DNA of 5,697 nt from Nitrospirae bacterium CG2_30_53_67. Lineage in GTDB: Bacteria; CG2-30-53-67. Under the pieces are notes generated by a model. That model searched no databases, had not been told where the DNA came from, and worked only from the letters and a program-made list of their open reading frames with translations. Positions 1 through 5,697 of this stretch are shown piece after piece. The stretch is from positions 1-5,697 of the forward strand of contig MNYV01000004.1 in assembly GCA_001873285.1 (NCBI GenBank), given 5' to 3'. Position numbers and translations under genes: made by a program. Position 1 is the stretch's first letter, and each line of letters starts with the position of its first letter.

Positions 1-96
1 ATGAAAGATGATTTAGATGATGATGTGAAAAAAAAACATTCACCCATGCAGAAACCTTTATTGGCAACACTGAGTTTGCCGAGGAGGGATTTATGA
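1..96 (+). CDS. 3' end of an upstream gene, or a 31-residue peptide; unidentified
   Basis: This frame is open from the first base to a TGA at 94-96; the other two forward frames hit stops within the first 15 bases. It encodes an acidic then basic stretch (KDDLDDDVKKKH) followed by MQKPLLATLSLPRRDL. The window begins exactly on an ATG, so this could be a complete 31-residue ORF, but it could equally be the C-terminal tail of a larger protein whose start is missing. Its TGA overlaps the ATG of the following cytochrome gene (ATGA, 93-96), which is typical of translationally coupled genes in one operon. I do not recognise the product. By context it may be another respiratory component, which is inference only. 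Confidence 0.5.
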   Translation: MKDDLDDDVKKKHSPMQKPLLATLSLPRRDL

Positions 97-1346
97 AAAG
101 CATGCATCAACTCAAAGATCAAGTAACCCCCTTTTTTTTATTTTTCCTTGTTCTGTTTCTGATCTGCACAGGAATCTTTCTGCCGCACAAAGTCCGGAGT
201 GCAATGGAAAAGAAAGGTGATGCCGCGTTTATCTTCCCGGAAGATGCCAACAAGGGCTGGAAGCTGTTTCTTTCAAAGAATTGCATCACCTGCCATACCA
301 TATGGGGTCAGGGAGACGGGACGATCGGGCCCGACCTGGGACGGATCCATATCAGCCACCTCTCCGAAGGTCAGCTGGCGACGAATATCGTCAATCACCT
401 TCCAAACATGTGGGAAAAGATGCAGGAACAAGGAGTCCGCTTTCCCGCGATAACCGATGTGGAGATGGCCGAGATCTTTTCCTTTCTCTATTTTATCCGA
501 TACGTGGATGAACCGGGGAATCCGGATGACGGGAAAAACCTCCTCTCCTCCAAGGGATGCATCCGCTGCCATTCCATTTTAGGCAAAGGAGGAAACATCG
601 GCCCCGACCTGACCCGGTGGGGGATCTACATCAATCCCATTGTATGGGCCCAGCAAATGTGGCAGCATGCCCCGCAAATGGAACAAGAGATGAAAAAGAA
701 GGGGATGTCCTGGCCGGACCTTGACTCAAAGGATATGATCAACCTGGTCGCTTATGTCCAGAGCATCGGCGGCAAGATCCAGGATGAATACCATCTGGAG
801 CCCGGATCGCCGGTGCGAGGGAGGACATTATTTGTTGAAAAAGGATGCAAGGACTGCCACACCATTGAGGGAGAAGGGAAGCATCAGGGACCGGACTTCG
901 GCAAGATCGAGTTTCCGAGGACCCTGGCAGGGATGGCCGCGCTCATGTGGAATCATTCACCTGACATGATGAAGATCATGAAGGCCCGTGAGATCCCGAG
1001 GAAGGATATCAATCCCCAGGAGATGGCGGACATCCTTTCATATCTCTTCGCTTACAGGTATTTCGATCCTCCTGGAGACGTTCAGCGAGGTAAAAAAATA
1101 TTCGAAGAGAAGAATTGCGTGATCTGTCATACCGTCGGACCGGGAGGAAGAGACGGTTCCATCGGACCCAATCTGGGGCAGCTCCATCAGATCACGATCA
1201 TCAAAGTCACCCAGGCGATCTGGAACCACGGCCCCAGCATGATGCAGAAAATGAGGGATTACGGATTCTCCTGGCCGGTATTGAAAGACTCGGACTTAAA
1301 CGACATCGTGGCCTATATGCAGTCCGTAAGCCTTCAGAAAGAGTAA
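93..1346 (+). CDS. membrane-anchored tetrahaem c-type cytochrome, four tandem cytochrome c modules
   Basis: This is probably a periplasmic electron carrier, or an electron-transfer subunit, tethered to the inner membrane. Residues 13-30 form one hydrophobic segment after a short basic N-terminus; no clear AxA cleavage site follows, so an uncleaved anchor is likely. Four CxxCH haem c sites lie at C64-H68, C156-H160, C252-H256 and C342-H346, spaced 90-96 residues apart. Each is followed by a G-P-D/N-L/F element and, 32-34 residues after the haem histidine, by an H-x-P-x-M motif (H102, H192, H288, H379) with a second invariant Met four residues on. Either Met could be the distal haem ligand. Modules 1 and 3 resemble each other, as do 2 and 4, so the protein looks like a duplicated dihaem unit. 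The start is supported by GAGGAGG at 81-87, five bases from the ATG. Its ATG overlaps the upstream stop, suggesting an operon. The modules fit the class I cytochrome c/CcoP-like fold; the redox partner is unknown. Confidence 0.9.
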   Translation: MKSMHQLKDQVTPFFLFFLVLFLICTGIFLPHKVRSAMEKKGDAAFIFPEDANKGWKLFLSKNCITCHTIWGQGDGTIGPDLGRIHISHLSEGQLATNIVNHLPNMWEKMQEQGVRFPAITDVEMAEIFSFLYFIRYVDEPGNPDDGKNLLSSKGCIRCHSILGKGGNIGPDLTRWGIYINPIVWAQQMWQHAPQMEQEMKKKGMSWPDLDSKDMINLVAYVQSIGGKIQDEYHLEPGSPVRGRTLFVEKGCKDCHTIEGEGKHQGPDFGKIEFPRTLAGMAALMWNHSPDMMKIMKAREIPRKDINPQEMADILSYLFAYRYFDPPGDVQRGKKIFEEKNCVICHTVGPGGRDGSIGPNLGQLHQITIIKVTQAIWNHGPSMMQKMRDYGFSWPVLKDSDLNDIVAYMQSVSLQKE

Positions 1347-1404
1347 GGAGTTCATGAAGCAAATATCAGAGTGTTGAGCGCGATGGGTTCTCCTGCGGAG
1401 TGTC

Positions 1405-1426
1405 GCATGTTCCATGCAGATTTTTT
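1405..1426 (+). terminator. weak candidate intrinsic terminator after the first cytochrome gene
   Basis: A 5-bp stem (GCATG 1405-1409 with CATGC 1413-1417, loop TTC) is followed after AGA by six T residues at 1421-1426. It sits 59 bases past the cytochrome stop and before the promoter of the kinase gene, where a terminator would be expected. The stem is short and only moderately GC-rich, so termination may be inefficient. A competing stem, TGCG 1394-1397 with CGCA 1404-1407, shares bases 1405-1407 with it. Confidence 0.28.
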
Positions 1427-1469
1427 AAACACTTTGCTCAGACTCACGCCCTGCCGGTCTTCCAACACG

Positions 1470-1500
1470 TTGACTTTTTGCATGAATTCCTGTATATAAT
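1470..1500 (+). promoter_or_regulatory. sigma-70-type promoter directly abutting the sensor kinase start codon
   Basis: The -35 candidate is TTGACT (1470-1475). The -10 region is TATATAAT (1493-1500), readable as TATATA with a 17-bp spacer or as TATAAT with a 19-bp spacer. Only five bases (1501-1505) separate it from the ATG at 1506, so transcription would begin at or within a base or two of the start codon. The kinase/regulator pair thus appears to have its own promoter, independent of the upstream cytochrome gene. No sigma-54 element with correct spacing was found here. Confidence 0.6.
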
Positions 1501-1505
1501 CGTCT

Positions 1506-3455
1506 ATGAAGTCGAATAGACTCTTCTCTCACCCGAGGATACGGGCAAAACTGATTCTTGCCTTTCTTACAATCGGCCTGATCCCTGTTCTGGTATTGGG
1601 AAGCCTGAGTCTGACCAGCTCGAAGAAAGCGCTTCAAAACAGCGCCGTCATGCAGGTCCATTCAGCGCTTTCCGCCAAGGTTGAACGGCTGCAGGACGCC
1701 CTGAGGCACGCTGAAAAAGACCTCCGGCTCCTCAGCCAATCCCCTTCTCTGATCACCTTTGCGGAATTTTATCCCGGCAACGTGGTCGGCAGAAACAACC
1801 TGAACCGAATGCTGATCCGCTCGCTGGAGGATCTTGCTGAAGGGAACCCTTTATATAGTGAACTCCTCCTCTTGAACCCCGAAGGGGAGCAGGTCCTTCG
1901 CGTGTTCCGAAGGGATGGGAAGCTCATGATCCAGGGGCAGGACCTGTCCCTGAATTTCAGCAAGGAAGATTTTTTCTGGAAGGCCATGGATACAGGCCGG
2001 GGAGAGATGATCATCACCTCTTCACCTTTGAGATCCATGGAAGGAAAAGATGATTTACAGACCCTGATCTACTCAACGGCGATTTATGACCGCGGCCATA
2101 CGCAAAAAGGGATCTTGAGTCTCCGGTTTCTCATCAAGGATCTTGCACGACTTGCAAGCTCCGGCGGAGACTCCATGGGCAACACCTATCTCATGGATCA
2201 CCAGGGCGGGTTTATGTATCATATCGACAACAACGAACCCTATCCCATTCAAGGCGGGTTTCCCGGCACGCTCGATGAACGGACCATCCAGAAAATTCTT
2301 TCCGGGCACGAGGGGCTGATCACGGAAGAAGCAAACCGCATCCTTTCCTATACCCCCATCTTTCCCGGAATCAATGAATCGGATAATTTTTGGGTCATGG
2401 TCATTGATCTCTCACGCTCGGTCGTCTATGCCCCTGTCAGAAGATTTCTTTTCTTTCTCGGCATCATGGTCATCGCCCTGGCCGTCATCGGCGCCCTCCT
2501 CGGCATGACGGCCTCACATCACTTGGTCCGTCCCATCCTCATGCTGCATCAGGGCGCACAACTGATTGCAAAAGGAGACTTCGACCATAAAATCACGGTT
2601 CAGACCAACGATGAGATCGAGGATCTTGCCGTGCAATTCAACCTGATGGCTCAGCGGCTGAAGGAATCGCGGCGCCGCCTTACACAATGGAATGAAGATC
2701 TTCAGAAAGAGGTCGAGAAGAGGACGCAGCAGCTTTTCCAGGCCGACAAAATGGCCGCTTTGGGCGCTCTCTCTGCGGGCATCGCCCATGAAATCGGAAA
2801 TCCCCTGGCTTCCATGAAGACCAATGTCCAGTTGTTAAAGGAGAACCTGGGCGAGCAGAACACGCACAGCATCTTTCTGAAAAGGATTCTCAATGAAATT
2901 GACCGGCTCAGCAAATTCTTCAGGACCTTCTCCTCTTTTGCAAGGCCGGTCAAACCTCAAATCGCCCCCTGCGACATCCGGCAGATCATCCGGGAAGTCA
3001 TCCTCTTCGTGACAAAAGAAGCCGCAGCCCACGGCATTGAACTGCGGGAGGCGTTCGACCCTCATCTCCCCCTTGTACAGGTCGATTTTCAAAGGATGCA
3101 GCAGGTCTTTCTGAATCTTTTTCTGAATGCGATCCAGGCCATGCCTCAAGGCGGCGCCATCACCGTCAGCGTCCATGCCCAGAAGGAAGATGCCGTGGAT
3201 GCAACGCCGGCGGAAAAGGTCATGGTCACCGTCTCAGATACCGGCCAGGGAATCCCCGATTCATTGCGTCCTAAAATTTTCGAACCTTTCTTTACCACAA
3301 AACCCAACGGCATGGGCCTCGGACTTTCCATCACGCACCAGATCGTCATGGAGAACCACGGCGCCATCTCCATGGAAAGTTCTCCGGGGAAAGGAACGAC
3401 CTTCTCAATCCTTTTACAGGCCGTGAGGTTGACGGCCGCAGCGAACATCACATGA
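1506..3455 (+). CDS. membrane-bound sensor histidine kinase, Cache-HAMP-HisKA-HATPase (NtrB/AtoS-like)
   Basis: This kinase should autophosphorylate on a histidine in response to a periplasmic signal and pass the phosphate to the regulator encoded next. The 649 residues comprise a membrane helix at about 14-36, a periplasmic region of about 270 residues resembling a double Cache domain (38-306), a second helix at about 314-335, a HAMP linker at about 337-390, a helical stretch (to about 415), then the kinase core. Visible motifs are the H-box HEIGNPL with phospho-acceptor H428, the N-box around N537 and N541, the G1 box DTGQGIP (578-584), the F-box FEPFF (592-596), the G2 box GMGLGL (602-607) and GKG (628-630). 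The periplasmic part lacks cysteine, so it carries no haem c and probably binds a small ligand. The ATG at 1506 is the only reasonable start: an in-frame TAA lies at 1497-1499 and the next Met (residue 49) would remove the first helix. It has no Shine-Dalgarno sequence. Its stop overlaps the regulator start by 4 nt. The signal is unknown. Confidence 0.93.
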   Translation: MKSNRLFSHPRIRAKLILAFLTIGLIPVLVLGSLSLTSSKKALQNSAVMQVHSALSAKVERLQDALRHAEKDLRLLSQSPSLITFAEFYPGNVVGRNNLNRMLIRSLEDLAEGNPLYSELLLLNPEGEQVLRVFRRDGKLMIQGQDLSLNFSKEDFFWKAMDTGRGEMIITSSPLRSMEGKDDLQTLIYSTAIYDRGHTQKGILSLRFLIKDLARLASSGGDSMGNTYLMDHQGGFMYHIDNNEPYPIQGGFPGTLDERTIQKILSGHEGLITEEANRILSYTPIFPGINESDNFWVMVIDLSRSVVYAPVRRFLFFLGIMVIALAVIGALLGMTASHHLVRPILMLHQGAQLIAKGDFDHKITVQTNDEIEDLAVQFNLMAQRLKESRRRLTQWNEDLQKEVEKRTQQLFQADKMAALGALSAGIAHEIGNPLASMKTNVQLLKENLGEQNTHSIFLKRILNEIDRLSKFFRTFSSFARPVKPQIAPCDIRQIIREVILFVTKEAAAHGIELREAFDPHLPLVQVDFQRMQQVFLNLFLNAIQAMPQGGAITVSVHAQKEDAVDATPAEKVMVTVSDTGQGIPDSLRPKIFEPFFTTKPNGMGLGLSITHQIVMENHGAISMESSPGKGTTFSILLQAVRLTAAANIT

Positions 3456-4807
3456 AACCGAATCTGCTCATTGTTGAAGACGACGAGTCCATGCTTTCCA
3501 CCCTGGGGGATCTCTTCCAGCAGGAAGGGAAACAGGTGATCTGCGCCCCCAACGGCCAAAAGGCCATGGATGAGTTTTTCAAGAACCAGCCGGACCTGGT
3601 CCTGCTGGATATCAGGCTTCCGGACATGGACGGGCTCAGTCTGCTCAAAAAAATGAGGGAGACCGTTCCGGATCTTCTCGTGATCATCATGACCGCATAC
3701 CCCGAGGTCCCCACCGCCATACAAGCCATGAAAAGCGGAGCCTATGATTACATCAATAAACCTTTTGAGCTGGATGAACTGCGTCTGGTCATCCAGAAGG
3801 CCCTGGAGACCCGCCAGTTAAAAGACGAAGTCAAACGCCTTCGGCAACAGGGGGAATACGCCTCTCTTTCCACACCGATCCTCGGCAGCAGCCCGGCCAC
3901 CCTGCAGTTACATCACCTGATCCGGATGGTCGCAGAAGCGCCCAAGACACCGGTCCTTCTTTCCGGGGAATCCGGCACAGGAAAGGAACTCGCCGCCAAC
4001 GCCATCCACTACCAGAGCGCCCGGGCCCATGGGGCTCTGATCAAGGTCAACTGCAGCGCCCTTCCGGAGAACCTCCTGGAGGATGAACTCTTCGGACACG
4101 AGAGAGGGGCTTTCACCGACGCAAAGGAGACTAAGAAAGGGCTCTTTGAACTGGCTGACGGAGGGAGCCTGTTCCTCGACGAAATCGGCGAGATGACCTC
4201 TTCTCTTCAACCCAAACTTCTGCGGATTCTGGAAGGGGAGCCTTTTCGACGTGTGGGAGGAACCCGTGAAATAAAAACCGATGTGAGGATTATCGCTGCA
4301 ACAAACCGGGACATTTTGGACATGTTGGAAAAAAATATCTTCCGGCAGGATTTGTATTTTCGCCTCAAGGTCATGGAGATCCGTCTTCCAACCCTTAGAG
4401 AAAGAAAAGAGGATATCCCATTGCTGGCGAATCACTTTATGCATCTCCACAGCCGGGAGATGGGGCGTTCCGAGGGGACTATGACCGGGGAAGCGCTCGA
4501 GTTGCTGATGAGTTATTCATGGCCCGGGAACGTCCGGGAACTCAGGAACGTGATCGAGAGAGCGGTCATCTTAGCCCATGGCAAACCCATCGACAGGGAA
4601 CACCTCCCTTTGGAACTCTGCAAGTCCGCAATTGCCGAAAGATTCAAGGAGACCGTGCCTTTATCCATGGACCTCAAGCTTGAAGATCTGGAAAGGGAAT
4701 ATATCTTGACCATCTTAAAGAAACTGGACGGCAACAAGTCACTGGCTGCAAAACGGCTCGGGATCTCCCGTTCGACGTTGATCGAGAGACTCAAACGCTA
4801 CCATTAA
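3452..4807 (+). CDS. sigma-54-dependent response regulator, NtrC family (receiver-AAA+-Fis HTH)
   Basis: This is a cytoplasmic transcription activator that, once phosphorylated, should hydrolyse ATP to open sigma-54 RNA polymerase promoters. At 451 residues it has the usual NtrC/AtoC/ZraR length. The receiver domain (about 4-115) has acidic D10/D11, phospho-acceptor D53, T81 and K103. The AAA+ domain (about 143-365) has Walker A GESGTGKE (172-179), the sigma-54-contacting loop as GAFTDA (219-224) instead of the consensus GAFTGA, Walker B LFLDEIGE (240-247), arginine-finger candidates R298 and R304, and sensor II WPGNVREL (357-364). A Fis-type helix-turn-helix occupies about 410-451 (GNKSLAAKRLGISRSTLIERL within 427-447), ending the protein. 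The ATG overlaps the kinase TGA (ATGA, 3452-3455), so the two are very likely co-translated as a cognate pair. All catalytic residues appear intact. Target promoters are not evident here; control of respiratory genes is inferred only from the neighbouring cytochromes. Confidence 0.95.
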   Translation: MKPNLLIVEDDESMLSTLGDLFQQEGKQVICAPNGQKAMDEFFKNQPDLVLLDIRLPDMDGLSLLKKMRETVPDLLVIIMTAYPEVPTAIQAMKSGAYDYINKPFELDELRLVIQKALETRQLKDEVKRLRQQGEYASLSTPILGSSPATLQLHHLIRMVAEAPKTPVLLSGESGTGKELAANAIHYQSARAHGALIKVNCSALPENLLEDELFGHERGAFTDAKETKKGLFELADGGSLFLDEIGEMTSSLQPKLLRILEGEPFRRVGGTREIKTDVRIIAATNRDILDMLEKNIFRQDLYFRLKVMEIRLPTLRERKEDIPLLANHFMHLHSREMGRSEGTMTGEALELLMSYSWPGNVRELRNVIERAVILAHGKPIDREHLPLELCKSAIAERFKETVPLSMDLKLEDLEREYILTILKKLDGNKSLAAKRLGISRSTLIERLKRYH

Positions 4808-4815
4808 AAAAAATC

Positions 4816-4844
4816 TTGCATTTTTAAATTGATCACCCTATACT
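4816..4844 (+). promoter_or_regulatory. sigma-70-type promoter for the second cytochrome gene
   Basis: TTGCAT (4816-4821) and TATACT (4839-4844) are separated by exactly 17 bp, and an A-rich run at 4806-4813 just upstream could act as an UP element. The predicted transcription start is near 4850-4852, giving a leader of about 44 nt before the ATG at 4895. The -35 lies nine bases past the regulator stop codon and no GC-rich terminator separates them, so read-through from the kinase/regulator operon is also possible. Confidence 0.6.
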
Positions 4845-4852
4845 CCTATCCC

Positions 4853-4876
4853 GATGAAAGGTAACTCTTCTTCATC
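4853..4876 (+). promoter_or_regulatory. 6-bp perfect dyad at the start of the cytochrome leader; possible operator or hairpin
   Basis: GATGAA (4853-4858) and TTCATC (4871-4876) are perfect inverted copies separated by 12 bases. They begin a few bases after the predicted transcription start of the second cytochrome gene. The site could be an operator for a dimeric regulator or a weak leader hairpin. A 6-bp match in an AT-rich gap can arise by chance. Confidence 0.25.
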
Positions 4877-4883
4877 AAATCAT

Positions 4884-4889
4884 GGGGGG
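4884..4889 (+). promoter_or_regulatory. Shine-Dalgarno sequence fixing the second cytochrome start at 4895
   Basis: The run GGGGGG (4884-4889) leads into TGA and is five bases from the ATG at 4895. The in-frame GTG at 4889 overlaps this run and would have no ribosome-binding sequence of its own at proper spacing, so the ATG at 4895 is preferred. Confidence 0.6.
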
Positions 4890-4894
4890 TGAAT

Positions 4895-5470
4895 ATGAGG
4901 AGAGGTTTTGCAGTACTGCCTTTTTTTGTCCTGATGACCTGGATTCTAATTTCACCGGTCATCGCCTCGGATTCAGACAGCGCGGATCATCAAGACACTT
5001 CCACCAATGAAGACGCGGTCTACAAGGGCGATCCACAGCATCCCGATATCCCTGATTTTTTCGTCCCCCCTCCCCCTTTCTCTGAAGGAATCTTCCCCTG
5101 CTCCGGTTGCCATAAGGATATGAAACCCGATAAACAGCGAAGGAAACTGGAGATGTTCCACCAGGACATCGAACTGAAGCATGCCGGTCCGCAACAGTGG
5201 TGTCTGGATTGCCATAATGCGGACGACCGGGACAAGCTCCATCTGATCGACGGGCGCCTGATCGATTTCAAGGAATCCTACCTTCTCTGCGGCCAGTGCC
5301 ACGGGACCAATTTCCGGGACTGGAAGGCCGGGGTTCACGGGAAGAGGACCGGAGAGTGGAACGGCAAGAAACTTTACCGGTTATGCGTTCACTGCCACAA
5401 CCCGCACCAGCCGCGCTTTAAACCACTGACACCCAAACCGCCGCCTGTGCGGCCTGATGATATCAAATAA
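4895..5470 (+). CDS. secreted small multihaem c-type cytochrome with four CxxCH sites
   Basis: This is a 191-residue periplasmic electron-transfer protein, counted from the ATG at 4895. A Sec signal peptide spans residues 1-24: MRRG, a hydrophobic core, then VIA before S25 as the likely cleavage site. Four CxxCH motifs lie at C69-H73, C103-H107, C132-H136 and C164-H168, spaced 34, 29 and 32 residues, which is much closer than in the first cytochrome. Further histidines (H89, H96, H116, H148, H171) could be distal ligands, so bis-histidine, low-potential haems are plausible. There are proline-rich stretches before haem 1 (VPPPPF, 57-62) and at the C-terminus (about 178-187). The compact His-rich layout, and segments such as HGKR, WNGKK and CHNPH, recall small multihaem subunits encoded beside Fe-S/NrfD-type quinone oxidoreductases. 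That similarity is from memory and unverified; no such partner is seen here. The gene has its own promoter and is followed by repeats, so it may be a single-gene unit. Confidence 0.88.
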   Translation: MRRGFAVLPFFVLMTWILISPVIASDSDSADHQDTSTNEDAVYKGDPQHPDIPDFFVPPPPFSEGIFPCSGCHKDMKPDKQRRKLEMFHQDIELKHAGPQQWCLDCHNADDRDKLHLIDGRLIDFKESYLLCGQCHGTNFRDWKAGVHGKRTGEWNGKKLYRLCVHCHNPHQPRFKPLTPKPPPVRPDDIK

Positions 5471-5502
5471 GGACCATCTCCAAAAGAGTGGGTGAAAACA
5501 TC

Positions 5503-5538
5503 AGGGGTCAAGGGGTCAAGGATTCCAGGGGTCAAGTG
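5503..5538 (+). repeat. octamer repeat block 1 (four 8-bp units plus AGTG)
   Basis: The units are AGGGGTCA, AGGGGTCA, AGGATTCC and AGGGGTCA in strict 8-bp register (5503-5534), closed by AGTG (5535-5538) and then an AT-rich tail containing TTTTTAAAAA (5545-5554). The block starts 33 bases past the cytochrome stop. Confidence 0.85.
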
Positions 5539-5558
5539 AAGTGCTTTTTAAAAACTCA

Positions 5559-5594
5559 AGGGTCCGAGGGGTTAAGGGGCTTAGGGTCCAAGTG
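5559..5594 (+). repeat. octamer repeat block 2 (four degenerate 8-bp units plus AGTG)
   Basis: The units are AGGGTCCG, AGGGGTTA, AGGGGCTT and AGGGTCCA (5559-5590), then AGTGAA and an A-rich tail. The block begins exactly 56 bp (seven octamers) after block 1 and has the same order of parts: four units, AGTGAA, AT-rich tail. By eye it matches block 1 at 25 of 36 positions, so it looks like a diverged tandem copy. Confidence 0.8.
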
Positions 5595-5637
5595 AAAAGC
5601 ATAGAAAAAACTGAAAGGTAACAGAAATCAAAAAAAC

Positions 5638-5681
5638 CACTTGAATCCTTGAACCCTGGAACCCTTGAACCCTGGATCTCT
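5638..5681 (-). repeat. inverted octamer repeat block 3, continuing toward the window edge
   Basis: On the + strand this reads CACT, then TGAATCCT, TGAACCCT, GGAACCCT, TGAACCCT and a degenerate GGATCTCT. On the - strand it is therefore AGGGTTCA, AGGGTTCC, AGGGTTCA, AGGATTCA followed by AGTG and a T-rich tail, the same architecture as blocks 1 and 2 in opposite orientation. By eye it is complementary to block 1 at 29 of 36 positions and to block 2 at 25 of 36, so RNA or single-stranded DNA could fold into a long imperfect hairpin. A partial unit, TGAATCC, is cut by the window end at 5691-5697. Confidence 0.8.
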
Positions 5682-5697
5682 ATAGGTTCTTGAATCC

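Follow-up and report, generated by a model that had tools for sequence, protein, structure and literature searches.

A dispersed MITE with ISL3-like ends whose octamer arms probably derive from the inverted arrays of an S23 element

Pneumococcal BOX elements are modular, MITE-like repeats whose short internal units vary in number and for which we know of no link to S23, and the cyanobacterial STRR heptamers form intergenic 7-bp tandem arrays in many copies. S23 four-helix-bundle proteins are common and form a poorly understood class. The TAACTGA repeats of Beggiatoaceae are likewise intergenic 7-bp tandem arrays in many copies, described with no mention of S23 (PMC4679880), and the Coxiella 23S rRNA IVS carries variable-number heptamers (GACAGAT) upstream of its S23p ORF together with a 28-bp terminal stem (PMC4990558). 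S23 (23S rRNA IVP) is also listed among cas-locus genes and possible CRISPR-linked genes (PMC3936711, PMC10910872). Our literature search with the octamer text and for S23 genes with inverted arrays returned nothing relevant beyond the Coxiella IVS paper (PMC4990558).

The window (the whole stretch of DNA that we analyzed, 5,697 nucleotides) spans the whole of contig C4, one of 183 in a 2.36-Mb assembly; the contig end falls inside the element (Table 1). The upstream region (93-5470) encodes, as annotated by eye, a multi-haem c-type cytochrome, a HAMP histidine kinase, a sigma-54 response regulator and a second cytochrome (4889-5470), the TAA stop of which adjoins the element. An initial annotation of this DNA had begun the feature with the octamers at 5503; its real start is at 5471, with a terminal repeat directly after the cytochrome stop codon. 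The 8-bp register that the annotation described was confirmed by a period-8 score of 19 over 5471-5697, versus a maximum of 12 in 2000 dinucleotide shuffles. AGTG does close block 1 (at 5535) and block 2 (at 5591), the two blocks lie 56 bp apart from start to start, and block 3 is indeed inverted, opening with CACT and running in reverse-oriented units (TGAATCCT TGAACCCT GGAACCCT TGAACCCT GGATCTCT) up to the contig end. The count of three four-unit blocks stands for blocks 1 and 2 and fails for block 3, where more than four units are present before C4 breaks off. We took the right flank of the window copy from contig C66 and from synteny with the congener. Plasmid DNA searched for similarity to the tract itself yielded nothing, and an Rfam search of the tract gave plant miRNA matches only, all below threshold, which we rejected as hairpin artefacts.

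Table 1. Features of the element at the right end of the window
Feature	Position	Strand	Details
Target-duplication position	5463..5470	.	TCAAATAA, including the cytochrome stop TAA; degenerate in this copy, with AAAAAAGG as its right side (contig C66)
MITE	5471..5697	+	First 227 of ~263 bp; rest (TCGAACCCTTCTTATCCAATAGATGGGAGAAGAAGC) on C66
Left terminal inverted repeat GGACCATCTCCAAAAGAGTGGGTGAAAA	5471..5498	+	1 mismatch to the genome-wide end pattern
Octamer block 1	5503..5534	+	Four AGGRKTCM units: AGGGGTCA AGGGGTCA AGGATTCC AGGGGTCA
AGTGAAGTGC closing block 1	5535..5544	+	Runs into the S23 GTG start in S23-bearing copies
Octamer block 2, second array of the left arm	5559..5590	+	AGGGTCCG AGGGGTTA AGGGGCTT AGGGTCCA
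AGTG closing block 2	5591..5594	+	
S23-less centre	5595..5635	.	Orthologous copy of the congener has the centre of another subfamily instead
CACT (5636-5639) and inverted octamer block 3, right arm	5636..5697	-	Reaches the right terminal repeat on C66

The octamer profile does not occur only here, as would be expected of a local low-complexity tract: the genome-wide search that had been proposed returned 773 matches to a 20-mer pattern, or roughly 770 sites, versus 18 for the reversed pattern. A joint pattern for the terminal repeats gave 190 matches in the 2.36 Mb of the genome and 0 on the reversed-pattern control, placing the family at roughly 100 sites. Complete copies, of which we examined 47 as a sample and not a census, are 125-359 bp long and end, in the aligned copies, in imperfect inverted repeats of ~28 bp, GGACCATCTCCAAAAGAGTGGGTGAAAA on the left and ..TTTTTACCCACTAAATGGGAGAAGAACC on the right. 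Contig C66 is identical to the window element over 214 bp (100%), and copies on C12, C133 and C80 are 96.5-99% identical to it in different surroundings; on these identities we read all four as recently spread copies.

Several copies were unusual. Contig C6 (G000:C6:5127-5425) overlaps window positions 5382-5697 at 99.6%, with a different right flank (GGAGAAGACCTCGGGCATGG) and one 16-bp unit absent, a discrepancy with C4 that is possibly a misassembly or a strain variant. The copy L077 (G000:C47:6533-6822) has two left-type ends and forms a perfect palindrome near a contig end, one flank being the exact reverse complement of the other; it is probably an assembly artefact. The centres of L052, L059, L080 and L018 contain recurring hairpin cassettes (GCCGTCTGCGACGGC..CGCGAAGCG and CCCCGTTAGAG..CTCTAACGGGG), the first of which also occurs in an octamer hairpin of a sister genus (L131), and a subfamily comprising L018, L015 and L021 has the right end GGTTCTTCTCCTCTACGAGCCNTCGGCCATTTAGTGGGTAAAA, with additional bases within the terminal repeat.

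All placed copies (n=34) were intergenic, between protein-coding ORFs, and none lay inside a 23S rRNA gene. Because its arms are mirrored, the tract folds stably as RNA (z = -3.7 in the fold check that had been suggested), and on each strand a T-run (CCCTTTTTACCC, CCCCTGATGTTTTCACCC) closely borders the arms on the outside, as would suit the proposed bidirectional terminator or another RNA-level element kept for its hairpin, a function that could equally be a side effect of a MITE. We do not favor such a role, and consider it quite unlikely, because the neighboring genes are co-directional at 27 of the 34 copies and convergent at only 2; the presence/absence polymorphism of copies across species also speaks against it.

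The 8-bp flanks of 37 complete copies (a set including one congener copy and the suspected artefact L077) agreed at 0.709, compared to 0.425 under shuffled pairing with a shuffle maximum of 0.517. This agreement appeared at length 8 only, with 8 perfect duplications and 84% A+T. Two copies, at G000:C83:6158 and C23:25393, carry perfect duplications in their own genome and have clean empty sites in the congener G003, where one copy of the duplication is left, indicating a mobile family with activity since the divergence of the two species. Another candidate empty site, opposite G000:C75:16224, was rejected as a deletion, since the terminal bases of the right end persist in the congener. The copy number, together with the terminal inverted repeats, the 8-bp target duplication and the empty sites, bears out the MITE among the alternatives that the initial annotation had offered. 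Its REP-like alternative, in which a RAYT (Y1) transposase would mobilize a REP/BIME-like element, would accommodate a palindromic, intergenic and numerous repeat; however, the clear target duplication disfavors it, and with long terminal repeats and element-sized units standing against it as well, we consider it highly improbable.

In the congener, 34 matches to the ends were found, or ~17 copies if paired, and four genomes of other genera in the same family contained 0-1 matches. One congener element is orthologous to the window copy: the sequence to its left corresponds to the flank on C4 and that to its right to the flank on C66, at 91-93% identity. The ends of these orthologues are kept, the left arrays differ by two octamers and the centres are unrelated, which suggests that arms and centres are exchanged between copies, presumably by recombination. 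The congener also contains more than 15 copies of a ~135-bp dispersed repeat (TTGCCGTAGGGCGGCC..) that we saw upstream of L007 (G000:C25), as well as 9-bp arrays without S23 (AGGGGTTCA, CAGTTCAAA; G003:C42:4-50, G003:C113:44009-44081 and L154) with sequences akin to the octamers.

MITEs with ISL3-like ends are a known kind of element. A complete ISL3 IS (L127) occurs in a sister genus, with ends GGTTCTCAACAGGATTGTGTGGGTAA / GGTTCTATACAGTTTTGTGTGGGTAA (terminal inverted repeat GGTTCT..GTGTGGGTAA), flanked by a perfect 8-bp duplication, TTCTCTTT. The MITE end (GGTTCTTCTCCCATTTAGTGGGTAAAAA) and this IS have in common only GGTTCT and GTGGGTAA, with spacing that differs by 1 nt. Given ISL3-like inverted ends and an 8-bp AT-rich duplication, the MITE was most likely mobilized in trans by an ISL3-family transposase, which would belong to an IS whose ends read GGTTCTTCTCCC..GTGGGTAAAAA. 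Searches of the genome's own assembly (95% complete) detected no ISL3 (PF01610) or IS1595 (PF12762) transposase domain, and no long pair of terminal repeats marking an autonomous partner was seen among the copies retrieved. One candidate autonomous element, C108:1282-2670, was rejected: the gene between its two left-type ends is an ordinary host-type protein, presumably a deoxyhypusine-synthase homologue as read by eye, and its second end comes from a separate 211-bp copy.

We then turned to the interior of the copies, and found that a PF05635 search of the genome gave 14 S23 matches, 11 of which are fragments inside copies with the terminal repeats and octamers. The S23 fragment of L173 matches TIGR02436 at 2e-13, several copies have a centre reading KELKVWQKSYQLCLEIYKITK, and complete copies with the order terminal repeat, octamers, S23, octamers, terminal repeat were found. 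In S23-bearing copies the left array (GGGGTCAAGTGAA-GTG-CTC-AAA..) continues into S23 at its GTG start, and the reading frame of S23 closes (..LIKSLENKHLTP, then stop) within the right array (CACTTGACCCCTTGA), so that the AGTG and CACT closures mark where the gene begins and ends. Several contigs terminate within the S23 cassette, a pattern to be expected if the assembly is disrupted by near-identical copies that bear S23. S23 is decayed in every copy that bears it, no intact octamer-type S23 parent was seen among these copies of the genome, and no S23 remnant was recognizable in the window copy. These data would also fit an ordinary ISL3-type MITE in which the octamers arose by local slippage in the arms and S23 fragments, picked up a single time by chance, were carried along as the element spread, given that S23 is recognizable in just 4 of the 47 complete copies and that near-identical copies differ by 16 bp, or two octamers, as slippage predicts. 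We regard this account as possible but doubtful, as S23 start and stop adjoin the two arrays exactly, S23-less octamer hairpins with AGTG but without these ends occur in sister genera, and the mirrored-array anatomy recurs at S23 genes of unrelated bacteria. S23 could also have entered, as a passenger, the middle of an octamer hairpin that existed beforehand, given the S23-less hairpins of sister genera. A further point against an S23 origin of the arms is their unit length of 8 bp, versus 7 in most S23 flank arrays.

This wider anatomy was assessed on S23 genes gathered from the same phylum, from plasmids of cyanobacteria, Gemmatimonadota, Azospirillum and Riemerella, and from viral contigs; the S23 profile matches the solved structures 2GSC (XCC0516) and 2RLD. 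S23 genes were found to be flanked by mirrored short tandem arrays, with a unit that varies by locus (GGGAGTA, GTGTAGG, AGAAGGC, GGGAACA, AGTTGCC, AGAGTGG, GGTTTAA and others). For 40 loci, with obvious duplicates removed, we aligned the upstream flank to the reverse complement of the downstream flank and obtained a median mirror score of 21.5, compared to 9 for cross-locus pairs. Scores of at least 16 were reached at 28 of the 40 loci, compared to 2 of 114 control positions taken from these loci, and at 30 of the 40 none of 100 shuffles attained the inverted-repeat score. The dominant period was 7 in 33 of 37 loci with clear arrays (duplicates still included) and 8 or 9 in the others. Four loci (L164, L172, L211 and L213) have direct arrays instead of mirrored ones, or both. 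L164 (G003:C35:37019-37333) is an intact S23 gene of the congener with long 9-bp TTTGAACCN arrays in the same orientation on both sides, and at L213 (Pseudanabaena galeata pPg_01), S23 lies between cas6 and cas4 with very long direct heptamer arrays (AAAGCTA / AAAGCCA). That unit length stays constant while unit sequence varies across S23 loci is what might be expected if the octamers were a putative array recognized at 8-bp spacing by a DNA-binding protein, such as S23 or a transposase acting on subterminal repeats. This proposal, already made in the initial annotation, is compatible with a MITE, but the unit copies diverge freely and we consider it unlikely.

Blocks of S23 with its arrays also insert, being absent from close relatives at several plasmid loci. 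On a Trichormus plasmid, the block (TCAGAATTCAGAAG.. S23 ..CTGACTCCTGAG..) lies between AAAGTAA and GTAATTAAC, where 97% identical plasmids have AAAGTAATTAAC; the repeated GTAA suggests a short duplication in this single case. In a Brasilonema relative this site holds only an array and an inverted array and lacks S23, which is also the condition of the window element; in a Nostoc relative S23 is present in truncated form. The array-S23-array block is likewise missing in relatives of two other loci (L219/L229 at 91% identity, L210/L231 at 95%), in a third pair at 96% in which only the right breakpoint was placed (L212/L230), in a 93% identical relative of a cas10-S23-cmr3 locus (L218/L232) and in an 85% identical relative of an nrdB-S23-nrdA locus. 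At the cas6-S23-cas4 locus of Anabaena sp. 90, a 99% identical relative has no S23 and other sequence in its place. These comparisons suggest, as an alternative reading, that at least some of the S23 neighborhoods at cas loci are insertions. The S23 blocks elsewhere do not have the 8-bp duplication of the window family, and we therefore keep the two modes of mobility apart.

Taken together, the tract is probably an S23-less derivative of an S23 element that was mobilized through ISL3-type ends: a non-autonomous MITE of ~263 bp that would have inserted directly behind the stop codon of a c-type cytochrome gene, with octamer arms that would be the inverted short-tandem arrays normally flanking an S23 four-helix-bundle gene. 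From the copies that retain fragments, we infer that ISL3-type ends came to enclose an S23 element, from which most or all of S23 subsequently disappeared. The link to S23 best explains the octamer arms and their closure by AGTG. More broadly, we give even weight for and against the reading that S23 genes are widespread mobile elements with mirrored 7-9-bp arrays as ends, the unit varying by locus, and that array-S23-array would insert en bloc, with cas and ribonucleotide-reductase operons among its targets, and would shed amplifiable S23-less hairpins as in the window, making S23 a mobility or array-making factor as opposed to an rRNA or CRISPR accessory protein. The literature that we searched, which covers the field in part, contains no description of MITE arms made from S23 arrays or of the mirrored S23 anatomy with its empty sites. 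Mirrored arrays and empty sites offer a concrete, testable model for S23 genes, and the window illustrates an onward fate of their arrays as an S23-less, highly amplified MITE.

The family can thus be placed among several known systems. It resembles ISL3 IS and MITEs derived from them in its GG-starting ends, its 8-bp AT-rich duplication and its resemblance to the ends of the sister-genus IS, but the interior consists of octamer arrays and S23 remnants and not ISL3 sequence, in a genome without a detected ISL3 transposase. BOX elements are similarly modular with variable internal units, although the units, the ends and the host are different. STRR and Beggiatoaceae repeats differ in that the arrays here are mirrored around S23 or an S23-less centre. 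The Coxiella 23S rRNA IVS (PMC4990558) shares with this family an S23 ORF with terminal inverted repeats; in contrast, the window family is intergenic and not within rRNA, is bounded by transposon ends, and carries S23 in a decayed form.
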